A stretch of DNA of 64,000 nt from Mya arenaria. Its lineage: Eukaryota > Mollusca > Bivalvia > Myida > Myidae. The stretch spans positions 68,420,723-68,484,722 of the forward strand of contig NC_069127.1 in NCBI RefSeq assembly GCF_026914265.1, given 5' to 3'. Under the pieces are notes generated by a model that made no database searches, had not been told where the DNA came from, and saw only the letters and a list, made by a program, of their open reading frames with translations. A program made the position numbers and the translations under genes. Shown here piece after piece: positions 20,544 to 46,300 of the stretch (position 1 is the first letter of the stretch; each line of letters begins with the position of its first letter).

Positions 20544-23500
20544 TCACATTCCCAAGAGTCCGTCACACAGCACCCCTTCACTCGTCTCCTGTTTACCCGA
20601 GGAGCAGATTCCTTTGTGGGTTCCCGGCAGCCAGACGAACTGGCCAACCTCGTCAGAGTTGGCTGGACCACAGTGTTCGATTTCTGAAAAAAAAGTATTT
20701 CATTTGCCAATATCCTTTAAATTACAACAGAAGTTGGAATCCCGAAAATATCACTTATTCTAAGTGAAAAATTCAATGTTCATATCTATGGGTAAATGCG
20801 AACACTTTTAAATGGCATTGTAGAATGTACATCTTGATGGGAAATGCGAACAATACTAAAAAACATTGTACAGTGGGTGAGAACCGCTATGTTCAAATAA
20901 ATCATCGTTCTTTATTCTTTTTTCTTCATATCGAGGGGTATGTGAAAAATTTGTTGATGTATATTTGCACGATTATGAAAATAAATTACTGGTTGCATAA
21001 GGTCTCATGGACGCGTGTGATTGTCTTTATGTCCCGATAGGGAAAAGTGTCGACAAAAATGGTTTTGTTCAAACGTATGTTAACTTAAACCTAACAACAT
21101 AAGCATAAACATTTCAATGTAAACACAATTTGCGGCAATTTTGAAATCCGCTATGTCACATAAAACCATGTAAAAGCATTAAATTGTAGCGATAAAGACC
21201 TAGAATACCTAGATCGAATCATACTGTTCTTTATCATTATATCTATAAATACCATGAAAGGTCTTTTTTTATTTATTATACCCATACCTTTGCTTGAGGC
21301 AATCAGCTTATTCTTGACTTCCATCATCATGTTGTAACACTCCTTGGAAGCCTTTCCGTGGTCCACCATTGGTTTGGGGTAGTCTACGCCGATAACACAG
21401 CCAGCCTTCTCCTGGACGGCTTTTGGGGCCTTCCACGGCTCAAATAGGTAACGAATGGGCATGTTCTTCAATATCGGCAGGTAGCGTCTGTGGGGATTTT
21501 TAGTATTGCTCGAATTGTATTCATTGATTGGCATGGATGTCAAAAGTTGTCTAAGTGAACCTCTACAATCAGCATTATGTATAACAGTAAATATCAACCA
21601 AATTGACAGTGTTTGGCATTTAGAAACAAAAGAAAGCAACTAGGACTGACGAACATAACACAAGATGATTGAAATTCAGTTACATGTAATACTAAGTTTG
21701 CATTTCTTCACGAGACAAACATTTGAAAGCAAACATACCTAATATATACACCATCTGGGTCCATCTTGCGTCCGTATCGCACAGGGCAGAAACACTTTGG
21801 GCACTGGAGAATCTTCTCAAAGGCGGAGCTAGACATCCACATCCAGTTTCCAGCACACACCGACCAATCAGCATCCAACAGGTACTTGTCAAACACCTTT
21901 ACAATTTACGTATGCGTTAAACATACTTTAAAATGAAATGTTCAATATAGTGTATAGTTTATATAATGATGTTTTCAATAATTTCTATTTTAAGAGTGTG
22001 CTACGTTTGTGTGATAGATAACGGTTTTTGAGCATGCAACATCTATTTCTTTGGTAACAAATTTCATAAGACCATATTATACGGTTTTAAATATATTGCA
22101 AAAGGTTGAAATTACATGACTGTGTTAGGAACGGTATGTCTAAGGCAGTGGCAAACCACTAACAATATCTCTAGTCAAAATTGAGTTAGTAGCCGACATC
22201 CTCATGTGAGATACAAATATCCGCGCTGGGACCTACTTTATATCTCAAGTAGTACCAGATAACACAGTATATAGCCACCTTAAGTCCCTCCTCCCAAGAA
22301 AGCCAGAGATCCCCGCGGGTTAGGAAGGTGGACGTCGCGTGACGACACACGTGGTGAATCCATCCCTCGTTTTTCAGCTGCTTCATAATCGCGTCAATCC
22401 ATGGATAACCAGTCTCTCCCTGGCAATATCATGTGTGTTCTTCATATTATCGTAACATTGTTTTCTATATAACACTACCAGAAAGACTCAAACACGTGTT
22501 TATTTAATTACAAAATCGTCCTCCCCCCGGTATCTAGAAGATTAACATTAAAACATCGCCACCAAGTGCAGATTCCAGCAAATGATATGGGTGGACCATT
22601 GGGCATAACTCGATAACAAACTAAAGAAACACTTAAGCTTTTACACAATGGCAACTCCTGATCTTTTCACAACCCTTTAATATATGATTTGCAAAAATCT
22701 AGTGTTTTTTAAACACACCCAAAATCAAATACACAGAAAGCAGACAAACAAGTTATGTACCTGTTCCCATTTCTTCAGTCTTTCCTTATCCTCATACCAG
22801 GGAATGTTCAAGCAGATTGGGTTGCTGTCCATCTTGTCGTAGTTTATGTTGTTCACAGACATCGTGTAGAAGTACTCCCGCCACATCAGCTGGCCGACCA
22901 CAGATATCGTGAACGCCTTACCTGGGTTTATCTGATAGAGTATATAATTATACAGATTTGTTACTGAAAAGTCTCTCAGAAAGCAAATATTACAAGAAGC
23001 TATGACCTAGCTAGTTGCTGTTTGTATGTTACTACTTTAAATGACATGAATCGAATAATAAAACTTTAGTATATGGAACGCCAAATTTACATAAATTCAA
23101 ATATCTGAAAAGTTCATCAAAGAATTATATTCCTCCTTAATTCAATTAAAGAGAGCTTTAGGCGAATACATAAGAGCGTCAATTGGCATAGAGATCTCTT
23201 CAAATCAGTTGGAGAGCCCTGCAATTGAATTGCATGTATCTTCAAACAACTAAATTGAAGAGCAATTAAATTGAATAAGATCAATCTCTAAATCAAATTT
23301 AGACTTATCAGTAAACTGCTGATTAGATATTAGGGTTTCTTTCAGCTCAAAAAACTCAAAAAGTACTTGAACTTACAAATATTAATGCCTTTGTACTTGC
23401 ACATGCAAGTCCTAATTCTTAAAACAATCGGTGAGTCGCAAACCAGAATCTGAGAATCTTTCTCTAAGGAAGTCTTTGTCCGTAATGGTTTGTTTGAAGA

Positions 23501-26500
23501 TTTTGATGTTCTATTATACAACCACATACTACAGTGTATGTGTGGCTAATATATACGAGGGTTATTCAACAAGTTCCTAGACTTCTTAAAGTGTATAACG
23601 TATTGAGCTACTTTTAGGACTGGATCAACACCGACATGTCCTTTATCATCTAGAATGAGCAAATATATTTTGTAAGATAACCAATAATAATAGCCTATGT
23701 TGTATGTTTGTATGTTGTCCCCTTATACTCCTTTACCTTTGTAATTTTCAAGTAAACTATAGACTTGTTTTATTCAAAAATAAGAATTTAAGCTAACATT
23801 ATTCAATTTATTTAAGAGTTACATTGGCGTCATCACAATCAATAGCTCGTTTGCCGTCATTTCGTTTGACCTTACTTGACCCTCATGGTATTGAAAAACT
23901 AAATTATTACGGAAGTTAGATGAATTTAAACAAAATCGTACATATGAACAGCAAAATTGCTGACAATTATAAAAATAACTATTGTATTTCAATGCATATG
24001 AATACAATATTTAAGCGAGTTTTGGTCCTCTAACTTCTTGAACAGTGCATTGGTCAATTGATCTATTGATTGATCGGTTAATACCTTCAGATAAGCATCC
24101 CTTAGACCCCAGTATAACTTCCGTATGGAAAGACAGCCGAACCTCAGGTGTGCACTCATACTAAGTGGAGGGCCCGCAATGTCTGGAAATGTCTGGTTCG
24201 GCATCACGTTACCACAACTGAATGCCTGTGATGGAAAATGTCCTCCCCATTATGATGTAACTTTTTTGTGTTTTAAAACTCTGCGCAAAACATATAAGAT
24301 AGAAGAAAAGGTATGCTTAAACACAAGTGACAATTATTTTTGTATTTATATACAGCAGAGAACTCTTAAAATGTATTACACTAAAACACAGCAGCCAATT
24401 GCATAAACTGGAATATAAAATGGTTTTGTTCAAGTGAGCCAAAATGTTTATTGATTGGTCATATTAATCCTATAAGTACTATTGACTTATTAAAGTGCTT
24501 GTAAGAGTAAACTGGCCAATCAATTACCTGCGGATAACCGGTTTCTAACAATTGTCTGTGGTATCTTTTAGGGTGAACCTAGTTCTAATGACATCGTTTA
24601 CACTCACCATTTCCTCAACAGTCATTCTATGCCGAAGTAGGTCCAGAGCCTTTGACTCGCCACCCATCCAAATATTATGGCGCTGATTCTGTTCTTCATT
24701 CTCCGCAAATACACCTACAGGAAATAACATAGTAACTCAAGGATCGCCATCCAAACTGTGATCTTAGCTACCGCATAAAATATCGCAAACACATATTCAT
24801 GAAATCACATTGAAAATCAATGAATGACTTCCAAACTGTAGCTATAGTTACCTACATAAACGGTAAAGTGCAGTGTCTCTATTTTAAGTAATTTCCATCC
24901 AAAATAGAATTTAAAGAATAACTAAATAAAGAAAATATTACATATTGTATTGCCATTGTTCCAAATAAACTAAGCTAAATACAAACAAAACAAGCTTTAC
25001 AAATACATACAAATCAACAAAGCTTTGCAATTCAATAGAAAAATGTAAAATTGGTTTCTACGAAAAGAAGAAGAAAATGCCTGTTTTGGTTGTTCTTGCC
25101 CAATATCATTACAACATGCACCAACGTAACAGGAAAAGAACACTTATAAACCACCCGAGGAAGCAAAATTATTTTTATTCCTCAAAATTCAAAACAAGTA
25201 ACAAGAGTATACCAGTAAGTAAATATACTTCTTTACACATTACTTACCAAGTGATTGGGTATACTTAAAAAATACATTCATTAATAAACCAAGTGACTTG
25301 GTAGACTTCAAAGAACCTACCCTTTTTACTTACCAAGTCACTGGGTAAACTTAAAACATCCATCACTTATTGCTTAACATGTAAGTTGAGTACTTCAAAG
25401 CACCTACCCATATAACTTACCAAATGGCTGGGTATACTTCAAAGAACCTACACTAATTACAAATAAGTGTGTGATTATACTTCGACGAGCCGAACACATT
25501 TTTCAAGTGAATTTATATTTAAAAGAGAATGCTCTTCTGACTGTCTAAGTAATAGTGAACTCTTTAAATACCTAGACTTCCTACTTACCAATTGAGTGGA
25601 TTTACTTAAAGGAACCTACATTTAAAACGTACCGAATGAGTGGATATCAGGAATGCCAAACAACTTGTCGTGGTCGGTATTGACCTTGTATGTGACTTTG
25701 GATAAGTCAGGGACATCTACTGGTCTAGGTGGGTCACCTACGGCAACCGCAACCTGATTAAACAGCGAGTACGTCAGTGGGGGTCTTCCGCCATTGTTCT
25801 TCAAAATTCTAGAAAAAAAACAATATAATTTATAATTGTTCTAAGATTTACTGTGATTCTGTATAACCAACCATAAACTGTCATCAATTCAAGGAAATAT
25901 TCGCGTTTTTATTCTGTTCAATTATTCCCCAAGCATTCATAGCGCATTGTTATCAATGTTTTTACGTATAATATGGGTCATGAAAAAAAAGAGAAAATTA
26001 ACCTACATTTAATGTTCTACACCGAACGAGGGTCAATAAAAATATGTGGACTGATTTTTATGAACATTATCCTTATAATATAATTATATTATTATATATA
26101 TCCCAGAAAAAGTCATCATTTATTCTCTTAAAATGAGAGATTTTATTTAGGAATATCGATTTTGCTTGTTATATTTAAAAGAATTGTCGGGCAAGACAGA
26201 GCAACCCATCTATGTCAAGTGACGTTGTTTTCATAGGTGTATCAGCTATAAAATAAATATAGTTGATGTCATAATCTATTTGAATAATATAATTATTATT
26301 TATAAATGTTTTAGAAACATCACCATAGCTATCTTTCACTTCTCACTATTTAGTATTTAGAAATGAAGGAATATGGTCAAATACAGAAAAAATGCAGTTC
26401 AGAATCGTTTCTCAATCTCTCTCGAGTCTTTTTTCTTTTTGGAATTGTCAATCTGTAACAATCCGTTTATTTTATCATAAAACATACAAAGGGTACAAAT

Positions 26501-29500
26501 AACAATGTGGTAAATGGTATAGTATTTGAGGTGAATATTCAATATATAGCAATATATTTGATAAATGCATTTAGAAAGCGCAGGGAAATGCCTTTATTGG
26601 TAAAGTGAGTTTGAAGCGTTATTAAATCATTATATAAATGGTGCATAATATTAATCGGTTTCGTTCTTCTTTCACACATATAGTAAATCTTGTAAATACA
26701 ATAAGAAACTTGACTTAGTACAATGTTAACAATATTATATTCTTTTTGGGTAATTTTATACCCCAGCACAATGTGCTTAATATTCTTAATATGTTTCTGT
26801 ATTCCACATTTATTAAAGACTGTCTGAATATCGCTCCAAAAGGTTGACAATGCCTTACATGTAACAAAAAGGTGTTCATAATCTTCTACTTCATTGCAGA
26901 ACATGCATAAAGGACAATCTTTCACTTTCCAGGTATATAAATTTAAATTTGTTGCTATAATATTATGTAATAACTTTATTTTAAACTGTTTGACTTTATT
27001 GTCTACAATGGATTTATGAACTATGTAATACCAAGAGTTCCAGCAAATATGTTCTTGTAATCGTCTTTCCCAATAAACATGAATGTATGGCTTTTCATAG
27101 AATTGTTTGATATATATCTGATATATCTGTTTATTCGTCACGTTTTCTAGAGGTTTGTCTTGACAACTAATTAAAAGTTTTGTTCTTACTACAGTCCTTG
27201 TAGATACATTTGTTCTTAAGGTTTCTTTCCAAGTGTTAGGTATTGCTTGTTTTAGCATATTCACTTCTGCTATCCAATTGTGTTTATACTTTAGATTATC
27301 AAGAATAGTATTTGTGTCGATGTTGCCCGAATTTGATATAATGTCGTTGATGTAAAGTATGTTTGAATCGATCCAGTTTTTAAACAAAAGACTTTTATTT
27401 TTAAATTTTATGAATTTATTACCCCATATTATTTCTTTTCTAATATTGTAGTAAGTGTCGGGCTTTTTAGTTTGATTAATTGGCAGTTGTTTAAACTGTA
27501 TCCATAATATAAGCAACTGTTTATAAAACAAAGTTATTTTGTTTATATTCGGCAGAGATTTAATAGTGTCTACATACATATGGAATATAAGAAATGTTTT
27601 CCCAAATTGATCGAATATTAATGATGGTATGACTTTCCAGTTTGCATTTACTGTGTTAGTTAGATAGTTTATCCATTTTAATCTCATTGTTTTAGAATAG
27701 TATCCCAAATCGGGCATGTTTAAACCTCCTTCAAGTTTGTTTCCAATAATTGTTGTGCGTTTAATTTTGTCCCTTTTACCACTCCAAAGAAATTCAAAGA
27801 TCAAGGAATTAACAATCTTTATAATTGAATCAGGTGTTACAATGTTTTGAGCTAGATACACAAGTTTTGGCAAAAGTAAAGATTTTATGACCGTTATTTT
27901 GCCAAAGAAGGTGAGTTTTCGTTTATTCCAATTATTTATCAATTGTTTACATTTTTCTATTTTTTCATTCCAGCTTAAGTTCGTACATTCATTTTTATCA
28001 TTTCCAAAATATACACCAAGTGATTTAACATTACACGATGTGAACTTTATATTATAACTCCTATTTTCTTCGTTTCGTTTGCATTTGCCAATCCAAAGAC
28101 CTTGTGTTTTGGCCTTATTTAATTTTAGTCCTGAATATTTTCCAAATTCATCAATGATATCAACAACTATTGGTATTTCATTATGGTTCTTTAAAAAAAC
28201 AGTTGTGTCGTCCGCAATTTGAGTAACCTTTAGATGTTTTCCTTGTATTTTTAAACCTTCGTAGTTTTTATTTTTTCTCAATTTAGTTGACAATACTTCA
28301 ACTACTATAATAAAGAGTAATGCAGAGAGAGGACAACCTTGCCGTATACCACGTTGTAATTGAAAAGAATCTGAGATCCATCCATTATTTAGAATTTTTG
28401 ACGTAATTTTACTATAAAGTGTTTTCACCCATTTAAGAAATGACGGTTTAAATCCAAATTTATTCAAAATATCGAACAGGAAATGCCACTCAACTGTGTC
28501 AAATGCTTTTTTAAAATCTAAAAATAGAATTGCGCCGTCTTTATCGTATAAATACGTGTAATCAATTATATCGTCTATTTGCCTGATGTTGAAACATATA
28601 TTTCTATTTTTTAAGTATCCTTGTTGATCTTGACTAATTATACTAGGTAAAACAGATTGAAGACGTTTTGCTAAGATTTTTGCTGCAATCTTATAATCAA
28701 TATTTAACAAAGATATAGGTCGCCAATTTTCCAGATTTTCAGGATCTTCTTTTTTATATATTAAAGAAACAACGCTTTGTTTTTGCGTAAAGGATAATTC
28801 ACCTTTTGTATACCAGTGATTTAACGCCGAGACAACAAGCGTTCCAATGATTTGCCAAAATGACTGATAAAACTCTATTGTAAGGCCATCAAGTCCAGGA
28901 CTTTTGTTTGGTTTCATATCATTGAGTGCTCTCTCGAGTCTTTGTCCGTCATTTTGTTAGTTATTTCTGATGCGTAATCTGCCCTTATTTTGGGTACGCA
29001 TTCTTAAGAAAACGTATGTTCTTTGAAAAGTATACTTATGCAAACATCAGGGACGCAACAACTAATTCAAGTTTACCCTTACATCTTTCCTAAGGTAGGT
29101 TATTTCCGTCGTAACTAGATCTTTCTGATACATCATTATCCGTGAACAGCCATACGAGATCAGAATAGATGCTTTAAGAGGCGTCAAGATGCTTAAGGGT
29201 TTACTTATTCGAAAAGCGCTGAGATTAAATTCATGTGTTTTGTCTTGAATGTTTAGTGATGTGAACACTTTGGACTGTCTTGTAATGATTGGTTTCTTGC
29301 TCGGTGTTTGCTTGACTTTGCGTTTAAACTTGATTTGGTTCAATTTTAGCAACTGAAATTGTTCCAGTAGTTACACTTGTTAGCTTATTGACAGTTTCAC
29401 TCAGTTCAAAATTAAGCTTATAATAATATATAAATATCATATGGCAGCATGTGTGACATTGATATTGTCAACCCGAGAGCAGAAAGTCACCCGAGGCGTT

Positions 29501-32500
29501 ACACATGTCACACATGCTGCCATATAAATTTTTTTTATTATACCGAACAAAATAAAGTATATAAAAAGTTTTTAAATGTTTTCAATTCATTTAATTAAAC
29601 AATTTTAACAAGGTTAACAAAATATAAAATAATAAAATGATTATATCTAGAACAAAATTCCACCGTTAATTATGCTTAAATTCCTTTAAAATCTGACAGT
29701 TCCTGCCGTTTGATGTTTTTGTGTACACATTGAATAGTGACGTCACTGCTGTATGTGTATAAGGGGGGGGGGGGCAATCACGTCATGATTTAACTAAAAT
29801 ATTGAAGCAGTTATTTGCCCTTATATGACATTCAAAATGTCACTGCGGTCACATGACCTAACAGTTAAGTTTCGCTTGGTCCCGTTTCAAAAAGGTTGAA
29901 AATGTTTCTGACAGTCAAAATATCTCTTTTTCGCGTAATGGGATTTTACCATTGTAGACAAAAGTGAGGTATAATAAACCTAAATAGCAAATGTTGAATA
30001 CTAAAAGTGACTCATTTTGAATAATTAGTTAAAGGTAGTTGTCATCATTTCCTTTACTAGGTAGGGTCTTTTAATTTATGCTTACTCTTTAGGATCCCAG
30101 AGTACATGCGAGACCTTCTCGACACATTCAACATTGTACTCCTCACAGAGACGCCGAACCTGTGTGTCCCTTTCGTGCCAGATCGCTTCCACGTCCACAT
30201 CAAACGTCAGCTTTGAAACTGACCACTCCTGACGGTATTAATAAAACATTAAATATAACGGGGAATCAGAATTAGTATATTTGTGACCAATTAAAACGGC
30301 ATTTATGCAAGTTGATTTTTCGTTAAGACTCCTTTTTTTGTAAGACGTTTTAAATGGCTGGTGTGTCTATGAAAACATTAAGAGAATCTGTTGTTACCAT
30401 TACTCATCATTGCAGAATACAATTTCAATGTATTTGCAGCATTTTAATATCTGCAAGAAAAAATATCTCTTTTTTGCATCTTCGTGCATATTACATAGAT
30501 GTCATTTTCTTTTCGCTTAATGTATACCTACTGGCTAATGACATCAACCTGTCTCTGCTTGTTGTATGTGTGTATAAAGTCTTATTCTTGAAAAAGCCAT
30601 TTTATGTTTATCAATTTGAACAGAAGTAAGGTCAGATAAAAATAGGTTCAAACTAAGCAAGACTCTTTTCCTGAGTTTTCTATAAATATATCCGTAAACC
30701 TCTGCTTACATACATGTAAATTGTATATTTCAAACAGCTTGATTTAACAATACACCATACGTATTTGTAATACGTTTCTAACCATATTTACCCACACCGC
30801 TATTATTCTGTTGTGTATCTTGTTTTGACCAAACTATATCATACACAATTATAACATTTTTAATAGTTTTCATATTCACTTTTTTTCAGTCAATAGGTAA
30901 TACAATTTACAGCATGTTTCCTAAACAAAGAATTTCTACCTAGGTCACCTTGAACAATGTTATTCTGAGTATAAGATCTTAACCCTTGTAATTTCTTGCG
31001 ATAAAAAAACCATTAGATTTTCATTCATATACTTAACAAACCTCAACTCATTACATTTACAAAAACAGGCTGGACTCGGGCGTTAATTAGTGCTCTTTAG
31101 AACATTCAAAGTTGAAAGGAGAATCCAGACTTTTCCAAATAGTTAGTTTAGGTAATATTGCAAAGAGTATATTCACCTTGAACAAATTGGATAGAATGGT
31201 TAGGACAGGTCCGGTGAAAACAAACAGACGTCCACCATCTTTAATGAATTGTTCATCCATGTCTCGCAGGCTCTCCAAGAGGAAACGCATGCGGTTATAA
31301 CCGGCTGTACGTGTGCCTGCAAAAGTATATCTAGATTTAATGCTGCACCCTCAGAGTTTAACCGTTTTATATATTTTGTCTTGGAATGAGCCATCTTTTA
31401 CATAAATATCAGATCGAAGTGTTTCATACTTACGTTCGAAAATTGTTTTTTTATTGCATAAGGCATTACTAACGCTTTAAGGAAAATGAGTTTTTCGGAA
31501 GTTTTCCAAATTATTGAGATATGTTCTATTGGGATTTATATTATATGACTGAATTGAAGGCATTGATACCAAAATCCGCTGATTCTGAGACAAAAGCTAA
31601 AAGAAATGTCAAATTGTCAATATGTGTGAATGCAGCTTTAAAGTCAGTGTGGTATTAAAACAACAGCGCCGGGGAGCTTACACCAAAGGTTTAAGCGTTG
31701 TTGTTTTATAAAGGATAAAAGTCGACAATTACCATTGACATGATTTGAGGCTTGCGTATTGTCACTGATAACATTGGTACCAAATTTCATGGACAATTTT
31801 GAAATATATTTGAGTCATGGCAATAAATAACTCTTTGGAACGCCGATGCCGACAACGACAAAGCGACTATTTTATGTCTCGAAAGCAGACAACTAGTAAT
31901 GCAACACCAAACGCGTTTACATCACATCCAACAGGATGCTGTCCAAACCTTTATTTTTATAGGCATAACGTTTGAAGCAGTTAATTGGCTTTTTTTAATT
32001 GGCTTTTGACTTTCATTTAGATACAATTGACATGACGCTGAACGATCATGGTATAAACATTGATAACTGTTACACTAATTGAGATATTTGCTAGTAACTT
32101 ATAACCATGGACAAACAAATGCTTAACAAAAAAGATGAGGTCGGTGTTACCTACTTTAATCAACAAAACAGAACACATTAAATGCAAATTCACGTGTATT
32201 TAAATTAGCAAAGTTATCATGTGATTAAACTGTTAATATATGCATATTTATATCAGAGTGTTTTGGGCGTCATGTCAATGGCATGTGACATGCCTGTGAC
32301 TCCCATTTCTGTTCAAAAACCAATTAAATCATTGTAGAAATAAACGGTAAAAACTGCATGTAAATGCAAATCAACTTAATTAAAAAAACCTTTATCAATA
32401 AGTGTACTGATTTTAAAACACCAGTAACTTTTTTTCTTTTTAAATTGTACAACTTTTGACAAGATTAAGGCGACAAGTCACACATAAATCTCTTAACTTT

Positions 32501-32682
32501 ATACCTGCCACTTCCCCATCAAAGATGAAGATTGGATACAACTCGCCACAGTCTTCTACTGCATCAAGAAGGGCGGGATTGTCGTGAAGACGCAGTCCAT
32601 GCCTGAACCAGTGGATGCACACTGGTTTGTCACTTACAAGGTTTTCAATGAGTGGTTTTGAAAGAGGCATATCTGATGACTC
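20544..32682 (-). CDS. cry1: Type I (Drosophila-like) cryptochrome, copy A
   Basis: Blue-light flavoprotein receptor family. Eleven exons: 32505-32682, 31177-31316, 30086-30228, 25633-25808, 24608-24714, 24085-24225, 22761-22931, 22279-22419, 21739-21896, 21288-21487, 20544-20683. They join to 1695 nt (564 codons plus stop) with consistent phases and GT-AG sites. The photolyase N-domain opens with [18 protein letters not shown]; the FAD domain has [37 protein letters not shown] and [13 protein letters not shown]. The Trp chain is kept (residues 340, 391, 394, 417), and Cys413 faces flavin N5. The tail has FVWLPG, like Drosophila FFW, then 34 more residues. The true start is unsettled: the first exon begins at an acceptor (GTTGCAG) with an in-frame Met at codon 5. 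Intron 3 carries a Tx1-like LINE; intron 4 an array of decoy donors. In Drosophila this class resets the clock by binding TIM in light. Confidence 0.94.
21855..21857 (-). other. Flavin-N5-facing codon of cry-A: Cys (TGT)
   Basis: It lies in DWSVCAGNW, and by counting the Drosophila CRY protein from memory it matches Cys416. Cys at this place is typical of insect-type light-sensing CRYs. Confidence 0.88.
23120..23310. repeat. CAATTGA-rich repetitive stretch in cry-A intron 6
   Basis: Variants of AATTGAA, AAGAGAGC and GAAGAGC recur on both strands over about 190 bp. This looks like a short internally repetitive or inverted-repeat element; not classified. No equivalent is seen in intron 6 of cry-B or cry-C. 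Confidence 0.4.
25245..25632 (-). repeat. Tandem array of duplicated exon-4 donor regions in cry-A intron 4
   Basis: A unit of about 43 bp (plus strand ACTTACCAAGTGACTGGGTA, then ACTTCAAAGAACCTAC) recurs about seven times, ending at the real exon 4 boundary (25633). Read on the gene strand, the units at about 25245, 25330, 25419 and 25583 carry TTGGTAAGT- or TTTGGTAAGT-like perfect 5' splice sites, while others are degraded. cry-B (38890-38950) and cry-C (48305-48360) have one such unit beside the real donor, so the expansion is specific to cry-A. Confidence 0.75.
26417..26431. repeat. Target-site duplication, left copy (15 bp) of the Tx1-like LINE
   Basis: CTCTCTCGAGTCTTT, repeated exactly at 28929-28943. 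It brackets the LINE at 26432-28928 and fixes both ends of the insertion. Confidence 0.88.
26432..28928 (-). mobile_element. Tx1/L1-like LINE, 5'-truncated, long intact RT frame, in cry-A intron 3
   Basis: One 792-codon minus-strand frame (26539-28917), open a few codons further to the element's 5' edge, encodes reverse transcriptase: [71 protein letters not shown] and [12 protein letters not shown]. The catalytic box is IADD where YADD or FADD is usual. A C-terminal Cys/His knuckle ([20 protein letters not shown]) follows. There is no endonuclease or ORF1, because truncation cuts inside the pre-RT region. The 3' end is short and A-rich (CCAAAAAGAAAA). Exact 15-bp direct repeats at 26417-26431 and 28929-28943 flank it. 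An intact frame and exact target duplications suggest a fairly young insertion. The corresponding introns of cry-B and cry-C lack it. Confidence 0.93.
28929..28943. repeat. Target-site duplication, right copy (15 bp) of the Tx1-like LINE
   Basis: Identical to 26417-26431. The LINE begins directly to its left on the plus strand. Confidence 0.88.
29439..29525. repeat. Perfect-stem inverted repeat (21-bp arms) in cry-A intron 3
   Basis: The left arm (29439-29459) starts ATATGGCAGCATGTG; its exact reverse complement is at 29505-29525. The loop of about 45 bp contains ACCCGAG twice. This resembles a short non-autonomous palindromic element; compare 62469-62567, whose loop also has ACCCGAGG. Confidence 0.75.
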
Positions 32683-33234: not shown

Positions 33235-33330
33235 CAATGAAAATTGTGCCCGGTGCTGGGCTGGAACCTACGGCTGCTGGACCACTGGCATATCGCTCTA
33301 TATATCTGAGCTTACCAGTCGGGTGGTTCT
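33235..33330 (-). mobile_element. tRNA-like SINE head, degenerate
   Basis: On the minus strand GACTGGTAAGCTCAG (A-box-like) and GTAGGTTCCAGCCC (B-box-like) sit about 50 bp apart in a tRNA-like frame. The flanks do not form a matched acceptor stem. Confidence 0.42.
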
Positions 33331-34404: not shown

Positions 34405-34421
34405 TTTATTGACATTTTATT
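34405..34421 (-). terminator. Candidate poly(A) signals of cry-B (two AATAAA)
   Basis: Two AATAAA hexamers on the gene strand at 34416-34421 and 34405-34410, 50-70 nt after the cry-B stop. Confidence 0.55.
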
Positions 34422-34473
34422 CAATTTAATGATGATATGGCCGAAGATAAATCAAAGAGCCCTTCCCACAGGG

Positions 34474-37400
34474 TTAAATTTCCACGAGTTCGTCACACAC
34501 TGTCGAATCGGTCGCTTCACATGTCTCCATGTCCGAGGAACAGGTTCCTTTGTGGGTTCCTGGCATCCAGACAAACATGCTAACCTCTTCAGAGCTTGCT
34601 GGGCCACAGTGATCGATTCCTGCAACAAAAGTGTGTTTTATTATCAGTCTCCTTTATACTACATGTATATCAGAAGTACACCCTTACATCCTTAGACATT
34701 ATTTTATAATATGTATCAACTTATTGCCGTCGAAACCTAAACATATATTTCGTATTTGAAACGAATCTAGGTAAGGATTTGTTTACGCTCAAACAATTTC
34801 ACATTCGTCCTCAATCATCAATTGAATGTACAATGTTCATATCGAAGGGTAATTATGAAAAGTTCGAGTAACATATACAAAAAAGGACTCATATTTGTGG
34901 GTATTTTCGCTCATCGAGTAACTAAAGATGTGGATCGAATTTATCTACAACACACGTACGTCTGCCACTAGCAATCAGTTTATTTTTGACTTCCATCATC
35001 CTGCTATAGTTTTCCGTTGAGGCCTTCCCGTGGTCCACCATAGGCTCGGGGTAATCTTCGCCGATAACACAGCGAGCCTTCTCCTGGACAGACTTGGGAG
35101 CCTTCCACGGCCCAAACAGGTAGCGAAGGGGCATGTCCTTTAATACCGGCAGGTAGCGTCTGTGGGGAAATGTTATAAACATTAAAATGTTAAATACTTG
35201 TAAGTTTTCTCCTGTAGGAATTTTGGGGCGCTCCACGGCTAAAACTGGTAACAAAGAGCCGTTAACACTGTCAGGAAACGTCAGTGTGTGTGTGTGACTT
35301 GCTTATTGCTTAACTTGTGATTATGGGTTAATTTTACGTTTACCAGTGGAAAAGGACAACACCTTTTGGATCTTCTTATCTCAAATTGACAGTTGTTTGA
35401 CATCGTATCAAAATGTTATAAACACAAATGAATGTAACTTTAGTCACATGTCATATTAGTATGCCCGAAATTCTATTTTAATGGCCTTACACAGTACAAA
35501 AGTCATTTGAAGGACCAAAACATGAAGTGTTGAAAGAAACTTTTTTTTTTATTTAGTTTAGAGGTTCAATATTGAGCAAACACAATACATACATCAGTTG
35601 CAACATATGCAGGTGTAAATAATTTTACGATTTTTGGACAGACTTTCCCGAAATGGCGAATGCCTTTTTATCTCAAATCCGGTAAATCTTCTTAGAATTT
35701 GGTCAACTCATTATAACCACAAAAATGTCGCAAAGGATGTGTGTTTTACTCCTGAAAAAGAATTTTCCTCAAGTTTAAATCAAACATGAACTTTTGAAAC
35801 ATTTAAATTTTTAACCTTCCCCACACACTTTTGTGCTGTTGAAGATCCAAAGTTAAAGAAAATGGTGGTAAACGGCATATTAATATCTAACGTAATCATT
35901 ACGAAATTGCTATACCATTATATGTTTGTGTCTAGGCAATAAGTAGTGTGTAAATGGCTAATTCACCAATAAACTCTGAAACTCTTGACACTATTAACGT
36001 ATTGTAATGTAGTAATGGAATTGGCAATGCACATTTTATTCAAAATTATTATTAACGATATTATCATATTCGTTGTACACGAACAATATTCAATCATAAC
36101 GTTTTGTGAAAACTCGTGAATGCTTATTCATGTTCTTATTTCATTTTTTTAAAGTTATCGGACAAACGTATTTAGAAATAAAGTGAAAAAACAGACTGAT
36201 AAACATACCACAATACGATAGAAATTCAGTAAAAGATGACTGCAAAATTTGCATGACTTTGGCAAGACAAGAATTTAAAAGCAAACCCACCTGATATAGA
36301 CACCAGCTGGGTCCATTTTGCGTCCGTATCGCACGGGGCAGTAACACTTGAGACACTGAAGAGTCTTCTCGAATGCGGAGCTAGACATCCACATCCAGCT
36401 TCCCGCACAAACCGACCAATCAGCATCCAACAGGTACTTGTCAAATACCTTAACATACAAGAATGTGTACAATATGCTTTAAAAAGAAAGATCTTGGTAT
36501 GTTATTCAAGACGCTTAACGCCTCATATTAACATTCGATTTTCTGTCTGTGTGTGATAAGGCAATTGTAATAGGGCTGAGCATATATGTGTTACTGGTAT
36601 TAAGTTGCATGAGCTTTAATCGAATCTTCGACAAAGGTTGCAGTTTGTTTGCATGAATGTCTAACCGTGAGTCTTAGGCAGTGTCGAAGTCTTGACGTTT
36701 TTCTTTTTGCCAAAATTAATAGATCAAATAGCCTAACTCACCTGTGAGACGAGATCCGCGCTTGAAAAGAAGATATTGCAAGTCAACATAAGCATACCAA
36801 CGAAAGAGCTTTATTATAAAGGATATACGAAATAAGACAGTAAATAGCGACCTTAAGTCCCTCCTCCCAAGAGAGCCAGAGGTCCCCGCGGGTTAGGAAG
36901 GTGGATGTTGCATGACGACACACGTGGTGAATCCAACCCTCACTTTTCAGCTGCTTCATAATCGCATCAATCCATGGGAAACCCGTTTCTCCCTTGAAGA
37001 GAAAGATTTGACCATTGCGTTATAGTAACTTTATTTGTATACATTACAATATAAAGCGCATAATGCTTATTTAATTATGCACACTTACACTTTGTCTTGT
37101 AAACAATGAAGACAATGCCAAATAGTTTCTGCTGTCGTTATAATATCAAAGGTAAAAAAAAAGCAACACATGCAGAAGCCAAGAAATGGCCCAGTTAAAC
37201 AAGGGACATAACTGCATACAGACAATATAGATGTAAAATTTAACTAAAGAAAATACTAACGTTTACACATAATGGAAAGTCCTCAAAGCCTAAATAAGGC
37301 TAAAAAAAATCCTACTTTTTTTCAAAAAAAAAACATCCTGAATAAAATATTACATAGCAGACAAGCAATTAGGTACCTGTTCCCATCTCCTTAGCTTTTC

Positions 37401-40400
37401 CTTGTCCTCATGCCAGGGAATGTTAAGGCAGATTGGATTGCTTTCCATCTTGTCGAAGTTTATGTTGTTCACAGACATCGTGTAGAAGTATTCCCGCCAG
37501 ACTAGCTGACCGATAACAGATATCGTGAACGCCTTCCTTGGGTTAAGCTGATATATTTTACAACATATTTGTTACTGGAAAGTGCATCAGCCAATCCTTT
37601 TACACTAAGCCTTGTCATAGCTAGTTGCTTCTTGTATGTGTTTTACTATAAATGACATACACATGATACGTAAGACAAAATAGCTTCTTGTAATTCTTTG
37701 AGCCATTTTATCGTATTTATCTTTCAAGGAATATAATGTCTATGTACATGTTCATGTAACACATGTCCTACTGGATATAAAAAATAATTCAGCCGCCAAT
37801 GATGTACGAGAATCATTCACTACGGAATACTTTGTCCGTAGTGGCTTTTCTGAAGTGTTTGATGTTTAATAATGCAATCACCTGCTACAGTACTTTTTTA
37901 CAGAGAAGTATCGTAAATATATTGTCTGATAATTTATTGATTTACTATTGAATCACCTGCACAAAAGTATCCCTAAGGGCCCAGTAAAATTTACGTATGG
38001 AGAGACAGCCGAACCTCAGGTAAGCACTTAAACTGAGTGGAGGCCCCGCAACGGCTGGAAACGTCTGGTTCGGCATCACGTTTCCACAACTGAACGCCTG
38101 TGATGGAAAAAGGACCTTCCCATTGTAATGTTTCTTTATATGTGTTTTATGACTTTTTTCAAATAGCTAATAAGAATGGAAATGTAATTTCTTCCAAGTT
38201 GTGAGTCTGCGATAAAGATAGAGGTATGCTGCATAACAAATGACGCTTTATACAATAACTTTGTATTCATATCAAGGAGAGGCTGAGAACTGTATTTCCC
38301 TTAAAATTATTAGTTCAGAAAGAGGGTATTACTAGATAATGCATATTTAAATACACTCACCATCGCCTCAACCCTCATTCTGTGCTGGAAAAGGACCAAT
38401 GCTTTTGACTCGCCACCTTTCCAGTCATTGTGGCGCTGATCCTGTTCTTCACTTTCAGCAAACACACCTACAGGAAATAACATAGATAGTCTCAACGAAT
38501 GACTCTCTGACTGTAGTCTTCAGGCAATATCATCGCCAATCTCAAAGATCAAATCCCATACATATGATTGCCATCTGAGTTACATACAGGGCAATGTATA
38601 GAATCTCTTAGTTAAAGAATCATATTTCACCCAAAAGAGAATTTAAAGAAAACATAAATTTTACAGTCATAAAGGCATAAAGAAGGTTAATATTATTGTT
38701 AGAAGCAAATAAATACAAATAAAGAATTACAATTGGTATCACAAAACGCAGACGAAAAGGTCGATATCTTTTGTTGTTTACTCAATGCCATTTTTTACCT
38801 AAAAATGATAAATACATAAATCGCTTGAGGAGGCGAATTGCCTTTTATTCTTCAAAATTGTAACAAGTTATTAAATTTGCACCTAACCTTCGATTAGAAC
38901 TTACCAAGTAATTGTAGTATACTTCAAAGAGCCTACACTTATTACTTACCCAGTGAGTTGATATCAGGAATGCCGAACAACTCATCATGATCGCTTTTGA
39001 TCTTGAACGTGATTTTGGATAGGTCAGGGGAAGCTACCGGCCTGGGCGGATCACCTACAGCCGTCGCCACTTTATTGAACAGCGAGAAGGTCAGGGGTGG
39101 GTTGCCGCCATTGTTCTGCAAAATTCTTAAAAAGAAACAAAAGGCATGTATAAATTCCTCAACGCTTTAAATTGATTTTGTAAACGTTTAAAGAAATCTC
39201 AACATTTTTGTTCTGTTCAAGGCTTTTCCACAAGGTCGATTAAAAATACGTGGACAGTGTATATGAACCTTTCACTGTAGATAATATTAATATTCATCAT
39301 ATATCCCGTAAATAGTAGAGTGCAAAGTAAAACGGAGCAACCCAATTTCGTCTAGTGACAATGTTTACATAGGTTATAAAACATTTAATATCAGCTGTAA
39401 AATAAATATAGTTGTTGTCACTATCTTTTTAATACTTGCCAGTAATTAAATGAATGCTTAAGCAGCATCAACCTTGATAATACTCACTTTTCACACAGTT
39501 CTTATAATTAAAAAGTAGTATATTTCATAAAATACAAGCGCGCTGATATGACGCTGTATGTTTGTTTGGTTTTATCCTTGATGAATTTTGGTAAAGTTTA
39601 GGCTACTTTAATTGTCCCGGTAGTTTCACTTGTTACATTATTGACAAGTTCCTTTAATGCACAATTAAGCTTAAAATTAGGCTAAATGACAACGTTTCAG
39701 TACTAAAAGAGAGTGATATAAAATAATGAGTAAAGGTAGTTTCACTGCATTTCCTTTACTATGTTTGATCTTTAAAATGCTGCTTACACTTGAGGATCCC
39801 AGAGTACATGCGAGACCTTCTCGACACATTCAACATTGTACTCCTCACAGAGACGCCTCACTTGTGTGTCCCTCTCGTGCCAGATCGCTTCCACGTCCGC
39901 ATCAAATGTCAGCTTTGACACTGACAACTCCTTTAATTATTTATAATAACATTAATCAAACGAGAATCATTGTTATTGGTGACCAATGCAAATAACTACT
40001 GTTAATATGATTTTCTTAAGAACTGTTTGCTTTCTTAGCGACTTATTATTACGACATTTCCTTCCCTGCTTGGTAGGCAATAAAAACAACCATGACGTAA
40101 TATTGTGGGATACAAATCAGTTTATTTGTAGCTTTTTTGCACGACAAGATACATTGCAGGGTTCTCTCAATCAATTGCATTTGGCAGTAAATTAACTCAC
40201 GGCTTTTGCTTCGGGACTTACAGACTTGACAAACCTCAGGTAGTTATATATAATAATGAAGGGTGGCATCACACCTTTGATCCCGACCAAAATACTTTAT
40301 ACAAAGAAGACTCAAATTATGCGTTGACTTTGAGACTCAAATACTTCCAAAACCTCAAGTCGCTTTAAATAACAAATAAGGCTGAACTTACACTGTTGCT

Positions 40401-41579
40401 CTAGACTCACAAAATATCCAAACCTCATGTTTATATATACATATAAAACAAAGAAGGCTTAAATTGAACCTTTAAATTGAGACTACCTTTAGTCGTTATA
40501 AATAAAAAAATAGCATCGACTTACACGATTGCATTGGGACAAACATACTTCACAAGCCTTAAATCGTCATATATAATAAAGAAAGCTGGACTCATACTTT
40601 AAAAATATCTAGGACTTTCATCAGAGTTCAAATGTTAATCCGCATCTTTTCTTTTGTATTTTTCCTTCATTTAGGTAAAATTTTCAACAATAAAAAGAAA
40701 TTCTACTTACCCTGAACAGCTTGGATAGTATGGTTACTAAATGTCCAATGAAAACAAACAGACGTCCACCATCTTTAATGAATTGTTCATCCAGGTCTCG
40801 CAGGCTCTCCAATAGAAAACGCATCCGGTTATACCCGGCTGTACGTGTGCCTGCAGAAATGATACTCATTCTAAGTCAGACAAAGTCAATATGGTATAAA
40901 AACAAAAGCCATGGAGCGAACGCCACTGCTCATTTGTAGTTTATTTAATCGAATATAATTCGACGCTTAATAGAGTCAGAGTTGTGGGCCTTCATAAAGC
41001 ATAAAATTACATAACAGATCGTTAATTAAAGTTTGAATGTAACAGCATTCAAAGCCAACAATAACAAATTACAATATACACGTATCTTTGCCAATATGTT
41101 TAGCATATAACTTATAAATCTCTGTATTAGTTTACCAGTTAAAATATACATATTTATTTCAGAGTGTTATCGGTGTCATTTCAATTGCATGATACATGCC
41201 TGAGGTCCCTATTTCTGTTCAACTACCAATTTAACAATTGTATATATAAGTGGTTAACCCTGCATGTGAATGCAAAAGCGACCCTTTATCAATAATTTTA
41301 CAGATGGCGAGAGAGCCAATTACTTTTTTTCTTCTTAAATTGTTTGTTTTTATGAACGCGATTATGGCGAAAAGATACACATAAATCTCTTAACTTTATA
41401 CCTGCTACTTCCCCATCAAAGATGAAGATTGGATACAACTCGCCACCGTCCTCTACCGCATTAAGTAGGGCGGGATTGTCGTGAAGACGCAGACCATGTC
41501 TGAACCAGTGGATGCAGACTGGTTTGTCACTTACGAGGTTTGCATTAAACATCTTGGAAGGATGCAAATCTGACGAGTC
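34474..41579 (-). CDS. cry1: Type I (Drosophila-like) cryptochrome, copy B
   Basis: Eleven exons: 41402-41579, 40711-40850, 39788-39930, 38950-39125, 38361-38467, 37957-38097, 37377-37547, 36852-36992, 36291-36448, 34960-35159, 34474-34619. Joined length is 1701 nt (566 codons plus stop), all phases matching copies A and C. Motifs include [67 protein letters not shown] and [13 protein letters not shown]. The Trp chain and the N5-facing Cys are kept. By eye it is the most diverged of the three (LVWRE for LMWRE, AGSW for AGNW, ELSVSK for EWSVSK). Its tail after [10 protein letters not shown] is different, ending in CDELVEI. There is no Met where A and C have one near the exon 1 start; the first in-frame Met is 11 codons in, so an upstream coding exon is likely. 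It has the shortest introns of the three. Confidence 0.93.
35190..35260 (-). pseudogene. Degenerate partial copy of exon 10 in cry-B intron 9
   Basis: TTTTGGGGCGCTCCACGG followed by CTAAAACTGGTAAC (35220-35253) matches the middle of exon 10 (GGGAGCCTTCCACGG, CAAACAGGTAGCG) in order and orientation, just upstream of the real exon. It is a single unit; cry-C has several. Confidence 0.5.
35514..35830. repeat. Dispersed repeat, copy in cry-B intron 9
   Basis: Matches 19376-19990: AAGGACCAAAACATGAA, GAGGTTCAATATTGAGCA, GTTGCAACATATG. Same orientation, with different end points. Confidence 0.65.
36407..36409 (-). other. Flavin-N5-facing codon of cry-B: Cys (TGT)
   Basis: It lies in DWSVCAGSW, the same residue number (413) as in cry-A. 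Confidence 0.88.
40195..40640 (-). repeat. Degenerate intron-2 minisatellite, cry-B
   Basis: About five or six units of 60-90 bp carry, on the plus strand, variants of GGACTTACAGACTT, CAAACCTCAAGTCG, ATATATAATAAAGAA and GCTGGACTCA. It belongs to the same family as 52340-53160 in cry-C. cry-A has about one unit (31035-31085). Confidence 0.72.
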
Positions 41580-41929
41580 CTGCAACAGTTATTGTATATG
41601 TATAAAGTGCCCTCGTTCTAAAAAGGAACATGACAGAAAAAACATCAGTTCTACCAGTCAGGCGTAACAAAACACAAATGTTTGTTCCCAGTTTCCCGGC
41701 GTTATTTTGCTCTACCTTTTGGTATATCTTTGCGATGTTTGATTGCAATGTAGAAACGCGGTATGTAGCTTTTATGAAAGCTGTTATTGATTCAATAAGT
41801 AGCTTTTTCATTCGTAGTTACTTCCCTTTTTACATGTATTGCAATGTTTTAAAATGATAGAAGCCGCAGTATGAAGCTTTATTGAATATGAAACCAATTT
41901 AACATGGGGTTTATCAATATGTAAAAGTA

Positions 41930-42720
41930 TTAGATGATTGAGAATAGTTTGAATCCGTACCAATTTTATCCGGAGCTCCACAAGGTACGTACTTGGGTCA
42001 TTGATGTTCCTGTTTCACATAAACGACCTACCATATTCAGTGTCTTTAAAAGTCAGACTATTCTCTGATGATCGTCTTCTTCATTTAGAAATCGAATCTG
42101 AACAAGACCATATTACTTGACAGAAACACATCCAATCACTAGAGACTTGAGGCATGAGGTTCAACGAAAAAAGGAGACATTCTTCCTTCTAACTGCAAAA
42201 TCCCCTCACTTCTATTCTTTTTGTAGACATATTTAAAACAATTTAATGATAAAACATATCTCGGATTAACAACTTCTCAAGATCTCAAATGGTCATCCTA
42301 TATCAATAAATTAACCAAAAAGACAAAATTGACACGTCTCTTCTACAAAGAAACTTGAAGAACTGTCCATACGGCTACAAAAAAAAAACAATAGACACAT
42401 ATCGAACGTATCCAGATATAAGCCAAAGGGTTCTTAACAAATGATTGCAAAATCAAAGACCCGGGCTGTGTTTTACAGATGCTTGCCAAACTGGAAGGCC
42501 GTGGAGAAAACAGATTTTTCTTCCTTTACAAAATGATGCCGGCTACACTAACGACGATTTCATCACTATAAAATCTAGATATTTAAAATATATAAATATG
42601 TCTGTGACTTTTAAACATCGGATTTTTCGAAAAGATACAGTGTGAATTATTATAGACCATTTCAGGAAAATTGTTCAAAACTAATCAATAGAAGTTTTCG
42701 TTACAGACAATTGAAACCAT
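41930..42720 (+). mobile_element. Decayed Jockey/CR1-like LINE reverse-transcriptase fragment
   Basis: Broken plus-strand frames read SGAPQGT, FHINDLPYSVSLKVRLFSDD, then YLGLTTSQDLKW and SYINKLTKK, then RFLTNDCKIKD and GYTNDDFITIKSRY. This matches the order of RT motifs and C-terminal region common in Jockey/CR1-type elements. Both ends are missing and frames are interrupted many times, so it is old. Confidence 0.75.
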
Positions 42721-43226
42721 CCGGAAAATAGTGTGTGCCTACTGCGGGGTGAAACCAATGACTTTTCGAGAACTAGCTAAGGCGCACAACCGACTTCTCT
42801 TACTAGGTCGGCTGGTTCAAATTGTACCCATATACAAATTAACCTTTATAGCCACGTAATGTTTCGTTTCAGAATAAAATCGCCATTTGAAAACTCAGAT
42901 GCAATATTCAAAAGTATGACACAAGATATATTTTTTCTTAGTAACTGACTCATATTTATAATAATAATATAATCAAACCAAATAACAGTTTCAGGTTTTA
43001 TTGTTTTATTGAACAACGACATACAAGCAAACACTATGACCAAAGAACATCTACAACACAGAAAGTTAACATATACACAAGTATCGAAAAGCATTGTTAA
43101 GAAGTGTTTCGATTGTTAAACCTGCAATACATGCTTTCAAATAAGTTTGCCATTTACACAAACGGTACAAAAAAGTGATGTCCATTCAGGTGCAATATGC
43201 TGTGTATGATAGTGTACATGTTGTGT

Positions 43227-43232
43227 TTTATT
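43227..43232 (-). terminator. Candidate poly(A) signal of cry-C (AATAAA)
   Basis: AATAAA on the gene strand about 120 nt after the cry-C stop; another lies at about 43004-43009. Confidence 0.45.
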
Positions 43233-43351
43233 TCTGCTGTTCAGTCACGATATGTTTCAAATATTCAATAAAATCCTGCTAAAGTGCCTTGTCAAAAAGG
43301 CAGTCGAATTAATTGAAAACCACACACCCGAACAAAACCCGTCCCCGAGAC

Positions 43352-46300
43352 TCACATTCCCAAGAGCCCGTCACATAACATCCCTTCACTCGTCTCCTCT
43401 TTACCCAACGAACATGTCCCAGTGTGTGTCCCCGGCACCCAGACAAACTTGCTAACTTCGTCAGAGTTGGCTGGACCACAATGCTCTATTTCTGCAACAA
43501 AACTGGGTTTTAATTATCTCCTTTATATCACAACAAAAGTTCGGCTCCCATTTCTTTAATAAACCTAAGAGTCGTTTCAACCACCCTATACAATATTTCA
43601 AAATATGCATCAGTTCCAGGTTTAAAAAATATCAATTTGAATTAACATATTGAGTTGCAAATATGAACACCTCAATGTGCATTAAAACCAATGAGACTCA
43701 GATCGATTTTCTTTTCATCCCCATCATATTTTACAAAGGAAACATGAAAAGAAATCAGTTGATGACCTACCTTTGCCAGTGGCGACCAGTTTATTCTTCA
43801 CTTCCATCATAATGTTGTAGTTTTTCTTTGATGCCTTCCCGTGGTCCACCATGGGCTTGGGGTAGTCTTCGCCGATAACACAATGAGCTTTCTCCTGGAC
43901 CGACTTGGGGGCTTTCCATGGCTCAAACAGGTAGCGAAGGGGCATGTCCTTTAACACAGGCAGGTAACGTCTGTGGAGAAATGTGATGAAATATAAATAT
44001 GTTAAATACTGCTAGGCCTTTTTCTGAACAGACTTAAGGGTTGTTTCACGGATCAATTAACACAAGGAAATGCCCTTCATTAGTGACAGGTAACGTCTGT
44101 TGAGAAATATTTTAAATCATAAGGGCTTTAAATATTAGTAAGTGTTCTTCTGCGCGGATTTGGAAACCTTTCCCTATTCAAACAGTTACATAGGGACATG
44201 TCCTTCAATACTTGCAATTAACGGCTGTAGGGAGTTGTTATAAAACATAAGGATGTGAAATACAGGTATGCCTTCTTCTGTATTGTCATGGGGGCCTTCT
44301 TCGACTAAAGAGGGTAAGAAATGGGCATTAATTTCAACACCGGCTGATAATATCTTAAGGAAAATGTAATAAAACATGAGGATGTTAAGCCTTTTTCTGG
44401 ACATAATTTTGCCATCCATAGTTCAAACAAGTACCGAAGGGGCATGTCCTTCAACACTGGCAGGTAAAGTTTGTTGTGAAAAGCACATACAAACTCTAAC
44501 GAATTACTAATTAGCACAGTGTTATATAACAGTAAAATATCAAATACTCTTAAGTCTTCTTTTGGGCCGACTTGGAGGTCTTTCTTTACTCAAAGAGGTC
44601 GCGAAGGGACATGACCTTCAAACTGGCATGCAACATCTGTACTCAATTCTTAAGTCTGGTGAAGCCCAACTTCCTGCAATTGAAAACTCACTCACCTGAC
44701 ATAAACACCATCCGGGTCAAGCTTGCGTCCGTATCGCACGGGACAGAAACATTTAGGGCACTGGAGGATCTTCTCGAAGGCGGAGCTAGACATCCACATC
44801 CAGTTTCCCGCATTAACTGACCAATCAGCATCTATCAGGTACTTGTCAAACACCTAAATATCCAGAACACATGACATATGAATAATAAAAAAGCTTCACA
44901 ACAAAAGTTCCTGACATGTGGTACATAAAACTATATAAACCGTGATGTTCTCAATTATCCATATTTCCAACCTTTGTTGGGGGGGGGGGGGGGGGGGGGG
45001 GGGGGGCGGGGGGGGGGTACTATTTCGGGGCTGGTTTTATCGATTTTGCTAAATAAGAATAAGTTTTTCGATGTATTGCAATGTTTTAAATGACTGTAAG
45101 GCAATGATAAAAGCCTGATCTGAAGATGGACATAATGTGACGAAACACATGTATAGTATTACACATAAATAAACAACCTTGAGCCCCTCCTCCCAACTGA
45201 GCCAGAGATCCCCACGGGTTAGAAAGGTGGACGCTGCGTGACGACACACATGGTGAATCCAACCCTCGGTTTTTAGCTGCTTCATGATCGCGTCAATCCA
45301 AGGGTAACCAGTTTCTCCCTGGTATAAATAGAATCCTTCTATTATATATTAATCTAGTCAATACTTAATAATACAAAACTAATTTACATAGAGAGAAACA
45401 CAAATAAATGTTGTTGTTTTTTATAATGCACACATTTGTTATAAAGACCCCCGTTGAAATGCCCTTTTAATATTTCAGACACAGTGATACTCGGACACAG
45501 CTGACCATGCCGTATAACTCGATAGAGGAAATAAAGCTATCGGACGTGATACCGAATTAAAACAGAAATTTAAACACAAAGAAAAATAGTCAACTTTACA
45601 TCTTCCTTTTCAAACAAAGATCCGACAAGATAACAAGAAACGAAAATACTCGATAATAGGGCGACAACATATAACTTTTTTTCCTATTAGTGATACTTAA
45701 GACCATTCCGCTTTGTGTGTGCTATCACAAATTATGCCAGGAGGACTATAATGCTTTGTAGTTTTTAAAAAAAAAATACAAACACACACACAAACAAAAC
45801 AAAGAATCAAAAACCGCCAACTAGTAATATACCTGTTCCCACTTCTTCAGTTTTTCCGTATCCTGATACCAGGGAATGTTCAGGCAGATTGGGTTGCTGT
45901 CCATCTTGTCGTAGTTTATGTTGTTCACAGACATCGTGTAGAAGTACTCCCGCCACATCAGCTGGCCGACCGCAGATATCGTGAACCTTTTCCCTGGGTA
46001 TTGCTGATAGAGTAATAAATGATACAGAGTTCCTATTAGAAAGTGTATCAAAGACACCATCTAGCACTAAGCTGTACAATAGCTGGTTGCTGCTTGTCTG
46101 TTTTCTACTTAAAAAGGAATACACAGGATAGTTAAGTAGTAAGTAAACTGCCAGTCAGTTATTTCTTTCAGCTCAAAAGTTCATTTAAATGAACATGAAA
46201 TGTCGTACAGGTCCAGCAAATCAGCCAGTCACCAATGAGAATCCTTCTCTGTAGACAAATTTGGCCACAGTGGTTTTTACTGACAAAATATTATTTACAA

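Follow-up and report, generated by a model that had tools for sequence, protein, structure and literature searches.

In animal cryptochromes (CRYs), which form of the flavin radical carries the signal is an open question, and in type I proteins it has been approached through engineered mutants of the fly protein DmCRY (PMC7910608). In the part of its text available, this study indicates that the type of radical formed in fly CRY is decided by Cys416, which faces N5 of the flavin, and by Leu405, which forms a barrier between solvent and flavin. Replacing Cys416 alone, by Asn or Asp, gave some neutral semiquinone in low yield, while the L405E/C416N double mutant, in which L405E was modelled on Chlamydomonas CraCRY and pigeon CRY4, greatly increased that yield and kept the tail docked; in DmCRY, it is the negative charge of the anionic radical, relayed by His378, that sets the tail free (PMC7910608). 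A red-light role involving the neutral radical has been raised for fly CRY in the accessible portion of another report (PMC6859314). In the available text on PdLCry, the L-Cry of Platynereis dumerilii, type I CRYs are described as having Cys at the N5 site, and the gate residue of PdLCry itself is given as Tyr413 (PMC10616196). Here, these systems are compared with three tandem cryptochrome genes, cry-A, cry-B and cry-C, of the bivalve Mya arenaria, located in a stretch of 64,000 nucleotides (contig NC_069127.1, positions 68,420,723 to 68,484,722; hereafter the window).

The three genes lie head to tail on the minus strand and are transcribed in the order cry-C, cry-B, cry-A, and their products are 81-88% identical. 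They differ at the residue that faces flavin N5, which sits within the motif DWSV-x-AG of exon 9: the codon is TGT (Cys) in cry-A and cry-B and AAT (Asn) in cry-C (Table 1). The original prediction had reported exactly this Cys/Cys/Asn pattern, at these positions, had pointed out that two substitutions are needed to go from TGT to AAT, and had equated the site with Cys416 of DmCRY; the first two points were borne out, and the third is supported by an alignment with DmCRY and PdLCry that is gap-free around the site. Exon 9 measures 158 nt in each gene, with AG before it and GT after it, and over its 53 aa cry-A and cry-C are 92% identical. The anchor GCTGATTGGTCNGT, directly upstream of the N5 codon, occurs three times in the window when up to one mismatch is allowed, always in exon 9, compared with 0.05 occurrences expected. 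A mutually exclusive exon 9, with a Cys version elsewhere in cry-C, was considered and rejected, as neither the anchor search nor tblastn (E up to 1, 109 rows) found a second, Cys-bearing copy in the window; the 10 of 109 tblastn rows that fall outside the modelled exons are all exon-10 relics, bar one weak row (E 0.66) at 3990-4049. A separate observation concerns exon 9 of cry-B, which reads CAGSW, with Ser three codons past the N5 codon where cry-A, cry-C, PdLCry and DmCRY (Asn419) have Asn; Ser is also found at this position in robin CRY1, and cry-B has the highest ratio of nonsynonymous to synonymous differences (pN/pS) among the three copies.

A further residue of the flavin pocket, missed by the original prediction, distinguishes the whole cluster from DmCRY and PdLCry. 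The solvent gate, next to the flavin, is Leu405 in DmCRY and Tyr413 in PdLCry; cry-A, cry-B and cry-C all have Asp there, and CRY4 and robin CRY1 have Glu. Combining Asp at 405 with Asn at N5, cry-C is a natural Asp405/Asn416 protein, close to the engineered L405E/C416N form of DmCRY in that Asn at 416 is accompanied by an acidic 405, and different from that laboratory double mutant in having Asp rather than Glu (PMC7910608). The pocket of cry-A and cry-B, by comparison, is of the acidic-405/Cys-416 kind. With an acidic gate throughout the cluster, the question becomes one of a residue pair, and a real photochemical difference is likelier than it would be from a single change.

By descent, as judged from sequence comparisons, all three proteins are type I (L-Cry/Drosophila-type) CRYs; this assignment, which had also been made in the original prediction, is supported by the order of the full-length bit scores and by a tree computed without the N5 column. 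The best match by sequence in the PDB is PdLCry (8p4x) for each of the full-length proteins, followed by DmCRY, with scores for PdLCry, DmCRY and the best vertebrate CRY1 of 692, 563 and 516 bits for cry-A, 653, 556 and 518 for cry-B, and 663, 556 and 521 for cry-C. Against other groups, cry-C scores 451-456 bits with 6ptz and 6pu0, which are presumably pigeon CRY4 and which the PDB table names Cryptochrome-1, and 418 with Chlamydomonas CraCRY; it does not group with the (6-4) photolyases (at most 413 bits, versus 663 for PdLCry). In a maximum-likelihood tree, for which 2 of the 11 sequences were represented by FAD-domain stretches only, cry-A, cry-B and cry-C fall together with a support of 100, and these three together with PdLCry and DmCRY are separated from the Asn-bearing set with a support of 99; support is weak for where PdLCry falls with respect to DmCRY (55) and for the branching among the Asn-bearing sequences (56, 71). 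An AlphaFold model of cry-C, built on an alignment of 43 sequences, has a mean predicted local distance difference test score (pLDDT) of 82.7, an earlier run on 3 sequences having been set aside at 29.7. A Foldseek search of the PDB with the model again ranks 8p4x first (template modelling scores 0.86/0.91), ahead of CRY1/CRY2 and DmCRY, so that PdLCry is the closest solved protein to all three copies by sequence and to cry-C by fold. The Cys typical of type I CRYs at the N5 site is present in cry-A and cry-B and absent from cry-C, which belongs to the type I lineage by descent and varies from it here.

The features associated with photoreception are kept in all three proteins. These include the Trp chain W342, W394, W397 and W420 (DmCRY numbers), the equivalent of His378, and an F-V-W tail motif. 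The chain residues W342, W397 and W420 are those named in the available text on fly CRY (PMC6859314). PdLCry is identical to cry-C at 277 of 508 aligned positions and has in common with it the Trp chain, His386, His390 and the F-x-W motif, but it carries Cys424 at N5, where cry-C has Asn, and Tyr413 at the gate, where cry-C has Asp. DmCRY (4jzy, 4gu5, 6wtb) likewise shares the type I affiliation, the four Trp residues, His378 and the F-x-W tail, but it differs in having Leu405 and Cys416 in place of Asp and Asn, FFW in place of FVW, and Asn382 where the Mya proteins have His. A second active-site His, which is typical of (6-4) enzymes, occurs in cry-A, cry-B, cry-C and PdLCry alike. Pigeon CRY4 (6ptz, if correctly named) and vertebrate CRY1 resemble cry-C in having Asn at N5 and an acidic residue at 405, the latter being Glu, but they belong to other subfamilies, cry-C lying with type I at a support of 99. 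Asn is also the residue of (6-4) photolyases at the N5 site, yet these are distant in score, and cry-C retains the tail motif by which DmCRY and PdLCry fill the DNA pocket. Among nine dimer and loop residues of PdLCry, four are kept (N238, Q271, P274, P279), the alignment being doubtful at N238, whose column disagrees with the published fly residue; five are changed (E249 to Asp, Val and Asp in cry-A, cry-B and cry-C, respectively, T253 to His, M256 to Thr, Arg and Arg, T260 to Met, and Y266 to Asn). Two further numbered residues were set aside, as their letters in PdLCry were not those expected. A heterodimer of the paralogues through a dark interface of the PdLCry type would be neither indicated nor excluded by this pattern.

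The direction of the change at N5 can be approached from the distribution of the residue, which is Cys in cry-A, cry-B, PdLCry and DmCRY and Asn in CRY4, robin CRY1 and all 80 of the prokaryotic relatives kept. The latter come from a scan of genome contigs that returned at least 591 stretches, all in prokaryote records, of which 527 were confirmed and the best 80 kept. One of the two scan patterns permitted only Cys or Asn at the site, and stretches were confirmed with cry-C as the query, so that 80/80 Asn means that Cys was allowed yet absent, and not that other residues never occur. An earlier scan of genome contigs for relatives found none, and scans of viral contigs gave no confirmed relative. 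The simplest history on the tree is that Asn was replaced by Cys at the base of type I and that cry-C made a derived return to Asn. Cry-A, cry-B, PdLCry and DmCRY all carry the same residue at 193 positions; cry-C departs from it at four of these, namely Cys151 (Gly elsewhere), Ile397 (Leu), Asn404 (Cys; DmCRY 416) and Val505 (Ile); the Gly-to-Cys change corresponds to DmCRY 151, the fly chain having been used without five loop residues, and numbers after the loop are unaffected. The same test gives 0 departures in 189 positions for cry-A and 5 in 194 for cry-B, which indicates that cry-C is not generally decaying.

Measures of divergence agree with constraint on all copies: pairwise synonymous divergence (dS) is approximately 0.50 for all three pairs, the ratio of nonsynonymous to synonymous divergence (dN/dS) ranges from 0.135 to 0.20, and branch pN/pS is 0.167 for cry-A, 0.320 for cry-B and 0.195 for cry-C. 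There are no stops in the 555 codons of cry-C, where a crude simulation without selection (0.25 substitutions per site, 500 runs) produced 14.1 on average and never fewer than 3. Selection on cry-C is purifying, and the check on its branch that had been suggested with the original prediction revealed no overall acceleration. Exon by exon, dS between cry-A and cry-C lies anywhere between 0.03 (exon 3) and 1.09 (exon 10); gene conversion is not claimed, as runs of shared silent sites are no longer than in shuffles (p 0.73, 0.16 and 0.06). Of 143 shared silent sites, 48 are common to cry-A and cry-C, 44 to cry-B and cry-C, 41 to cry-A and cry-B, and 10 fall otherwise, and the protein tree joins cry-B and cry-C with a support of 83; with silent sites nearly equal among pairs, no order of duplication appears favoured.

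Taken together, these data somewhat favour the reading that cry-C is an intact, constrained, light-absorbing type I CRY whose flavin pocket has shifted from Cys to Asn at N5, with an altered photocycle as a consequence. The proposal of the original prediction that photocycles differ within the cluster is plausible by analogy with the fly mutants, and it is strengthened by the Asp at the 405 gate. If the behaviour of the DmCRY mutants carries over, blue light would drive electron transfer along the Trp chain in cry-C as in cry-A and cry-B, and the flavin radical of cry-C would then be protonated at N5, giving a neutral semiquinone (~580-630 nm) instead of the anionic form. As the tail of DmCRY is released by the negative charge of the anionic radical via His378, that of cry-C should release poorly or by another route, and the lifetime and absorption of the radical would differ. 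In such a cluster, cry-A and cry-B would be conventional receptors that release their tails in light, and the third receptor would differ from both in its radical chemistry and in its signalling output. That it naturally encodes both forms of the redox switch, with anionic radicals and tail release in cry-A and cry-B and a neutral radical in cry-C, which stays docked or signals differently, is a more tentative proposition, possible but not presumed. As for its role, cry-C might serve as a dark-locked partner, might sense light more slowly or in the red, or might signal from the neutral state in the manner of CRY4, alternatives between which the sequence cannot choose.

Several points weigh against this interpretation of cry-C, which draws on sequence, predicted structure and published DmCRY mutants, the cluster being known here from its genes alone. 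When a 121-residue FAD-domain stretch of cry-A is used as the query, the order of scores becomes PdLCry 210, CRY4 190, CRY1 188 and DmCRY 169 bits. Among the Asn-bearing prokaryotic relatives (the best 80 of 527), only 17 have an acidic residue at 405 (Glu in 13, Asp in 4), so Asn at N5 is not paired with an acidic 405 as a matter of course. The mutation tested in DmCRY was to Glu, whose side chain exceeds that of Asp by one carbon, and the literature search found no paper on L405D together with cryptochrome. Asp405 is also present in cry-A and cry-B, both of which may already differ from DmCRY. Moreover, the part available of a study on CraCRY and pigeon CRY4 describes conformational changes that go along with the neutral semiquinone in both (PMC11362059), and the docked tail of the fly double mutant may therefore not carry over to cry-C, whose own tail (residues 512-555, the last 44) is predicted with low confidence in the AlphaFold model.

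Part of the same evidence can be read as drift, the change from Cys to Asn being tolerated in a redundant cluster, with a slight photochemical shift of which the organism makes no use. Three similar copies permit redundancy, the branch pN/pS of cry-C lies between those of cry-A and cry-B, and in DmCRY C416N by itself formed little neutral semiquinone, in the text available (PMC7910608). Drift is nevertheless considered rather unlikely, as a two-base change has been fixed at a site where cry-A, cry-B, PdLCry and DmCRY all have Cys, and as Asp405 is the kind of second feature that made the fly double mutant efficient.

A more radical change of function, in which cry-C would have moved toward a light-independent role like that of vertebrate CRYs or toward repair in the manner of (6-4) photolyases, had been envisaged in the original prediction and is highly improbable. 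The Asn at N5 is indeed common to vertebrate CRY1, CRY4 and the prokaryotic photolyase relatives, but nothing else that is peculiar to cry-C points to such a role. Cry-C keeps the Trp chain, His378 and the F-x-W motif of the pocket-filling tail, selection on it is purifying, the second active-site His is found equally in cry-A, cry-B and PdLCry, and over its full length cry-C resembles type I proteins. Least probable of all is that an error of sequencing or assembly produced the Asn codon, or that cry-C is a dying copy. The AAT codon is read from the assembly, and decayed exon-10 copies in intron 9 of cry-C speak for local instability; yet the codon involves two base changes within an otherwise regular exon, all ten cry-C introns are GT-AG, the 555 codons are open, and pN/pS on the branch is well below 1.

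If an altered photocycle of cry-C is borne in mind, the interest of the cluster is that a natural trio of closely similar proteins, differing at the deciding residue, offers a ready comparison, the redox switch of type I CRYs being otherwise described, in the literature covered, from laboratory mutants only. Cys-to-Asn mutants of insect CRYs were reportedly made by Ozturk and colleagues in 2008. Among the titles, abstract openings and passages that it covered, a search of the literature, with subscription journals mostly outside its reach, found no natural type I CRY with Asn at N5. Should the cluster indeed encode both forms of the switch, the same gene family would provide the animal with a second channel of cryptochrome signalling, distinct in lifetime and with a red-shifted radical absorption. 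The cluster also adds a type I tandem triplet to the few known retained cryptochrome duplications: in the accessible part of a survey of 80 mollusc genomes, very few such duplications were retained, and more than two copies of one type were found only in Dreissena polymorpha (PMC10733189), and a likely tandem duplication is mentioned for the copepod Calanus finmarchicus in the text available (PMC4350181).

Table 1. Positions in the window of the cryptochrome genes and of the features discussed.
Feature	Position	Strand	Remarks
cry-C gene	43352..55164	-	11 coding exons, 555 aa; hand-built homology model, GT-AG introns, open frame
cry-C exons 1-6	55164-55014, 53327-53188, 51984-51842, 48529-48354, 46766-46660, 46477-46337	-	
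cry-C exons 7-11	46003-45833, 45318-45178, 44853-44696, 43970-43771, 43491-43352	-	
cry-C exon 9	44696..44853	-	carries the Asn codon
cry-C Asn codon AAT	44812..44814	-	residue 404 = DmCRY Cys416 / PdLCry Cys424; alignment
cry-C Asp codon GAC	44845..44847	-	405-equivalent
cry-C exon 11	43352..43491	-	tail motif F-V-W, equivalent of DmCRY FFW / PdLCry FCW
cry-C intron 9, degenerate tandem exon-10 relics	44020..44640	-	two by tblastn, others by eye
cry-B gene	34474..41552	-	11 coding exons, 557 aa; homology model
cry-B exon 9	36291..36448	-	
cry-B Cys codon TGT	36407..36409	-	
cry-B Asp codon GAC	36440..36442	-	405-equivalent
cry-B intron 9, exon-10 relic	35200-35280	-	tblastn
cry-A gene	20544..32670	-	11 coding exons, 560 aa; homology model
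cry-A exon 9	21739..21896	-	
cry-A Cys codon TGT	21855..21857	-	
cry-A Asp codon GAC	21888..21890	-	405-equivalent

The exon models were obtained by comparing the copies with one another, that is, from homology only. All 30 introns of the three genes are GT-AG, the frames are open throughout, and the internal exons 2-10 are equal in length across the copies; the least certain part is the start codon, as an AG precedes exon 1 and cry-A has an extra in-frame ATG upstream. In cry-C, the sole copy scanned against Pfam, the domains DNA_photolyase (PF00875) and FAD_binding_7 (PF03441) were found, and an Rfam scan gave nothing at gathering scores. Decayed exon-10 copies occur in tandem between exons 9 and 10, where tblastn detected two in cry-C and one in cry-B and approximately five can be made out by eye in cry-C; the clearest (44472-44410) is still readable as protein over 16 residues and has no acceptor AG.

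Other elements lie within or beside the genes. Intron 3 of cry-A contains an 805-codon open stretch (26542-28956, minus strand) with reverse transcriptase and zf-RVT domains, resembling a long interspersed nuclear element, and intron 3 of cry-C contains a second reverse-transcriptase element (49603-51066, plus strand), a broken relative of which is found near the left end of the window (5309-6732, plus strand). Outside the cry genes, several similar pieces recur in the same order approximately 12 kb apart, at about 700-3500 and at 12200-15500 on the plus strand, and may represent a segmental duplication or a repeated element. Tandem arrays are present at 63016-63734, with 8.3 copies of an 86-bp unit at 98% match, and at 10948-11591, where adjoining arrays have a 51-bp unit.

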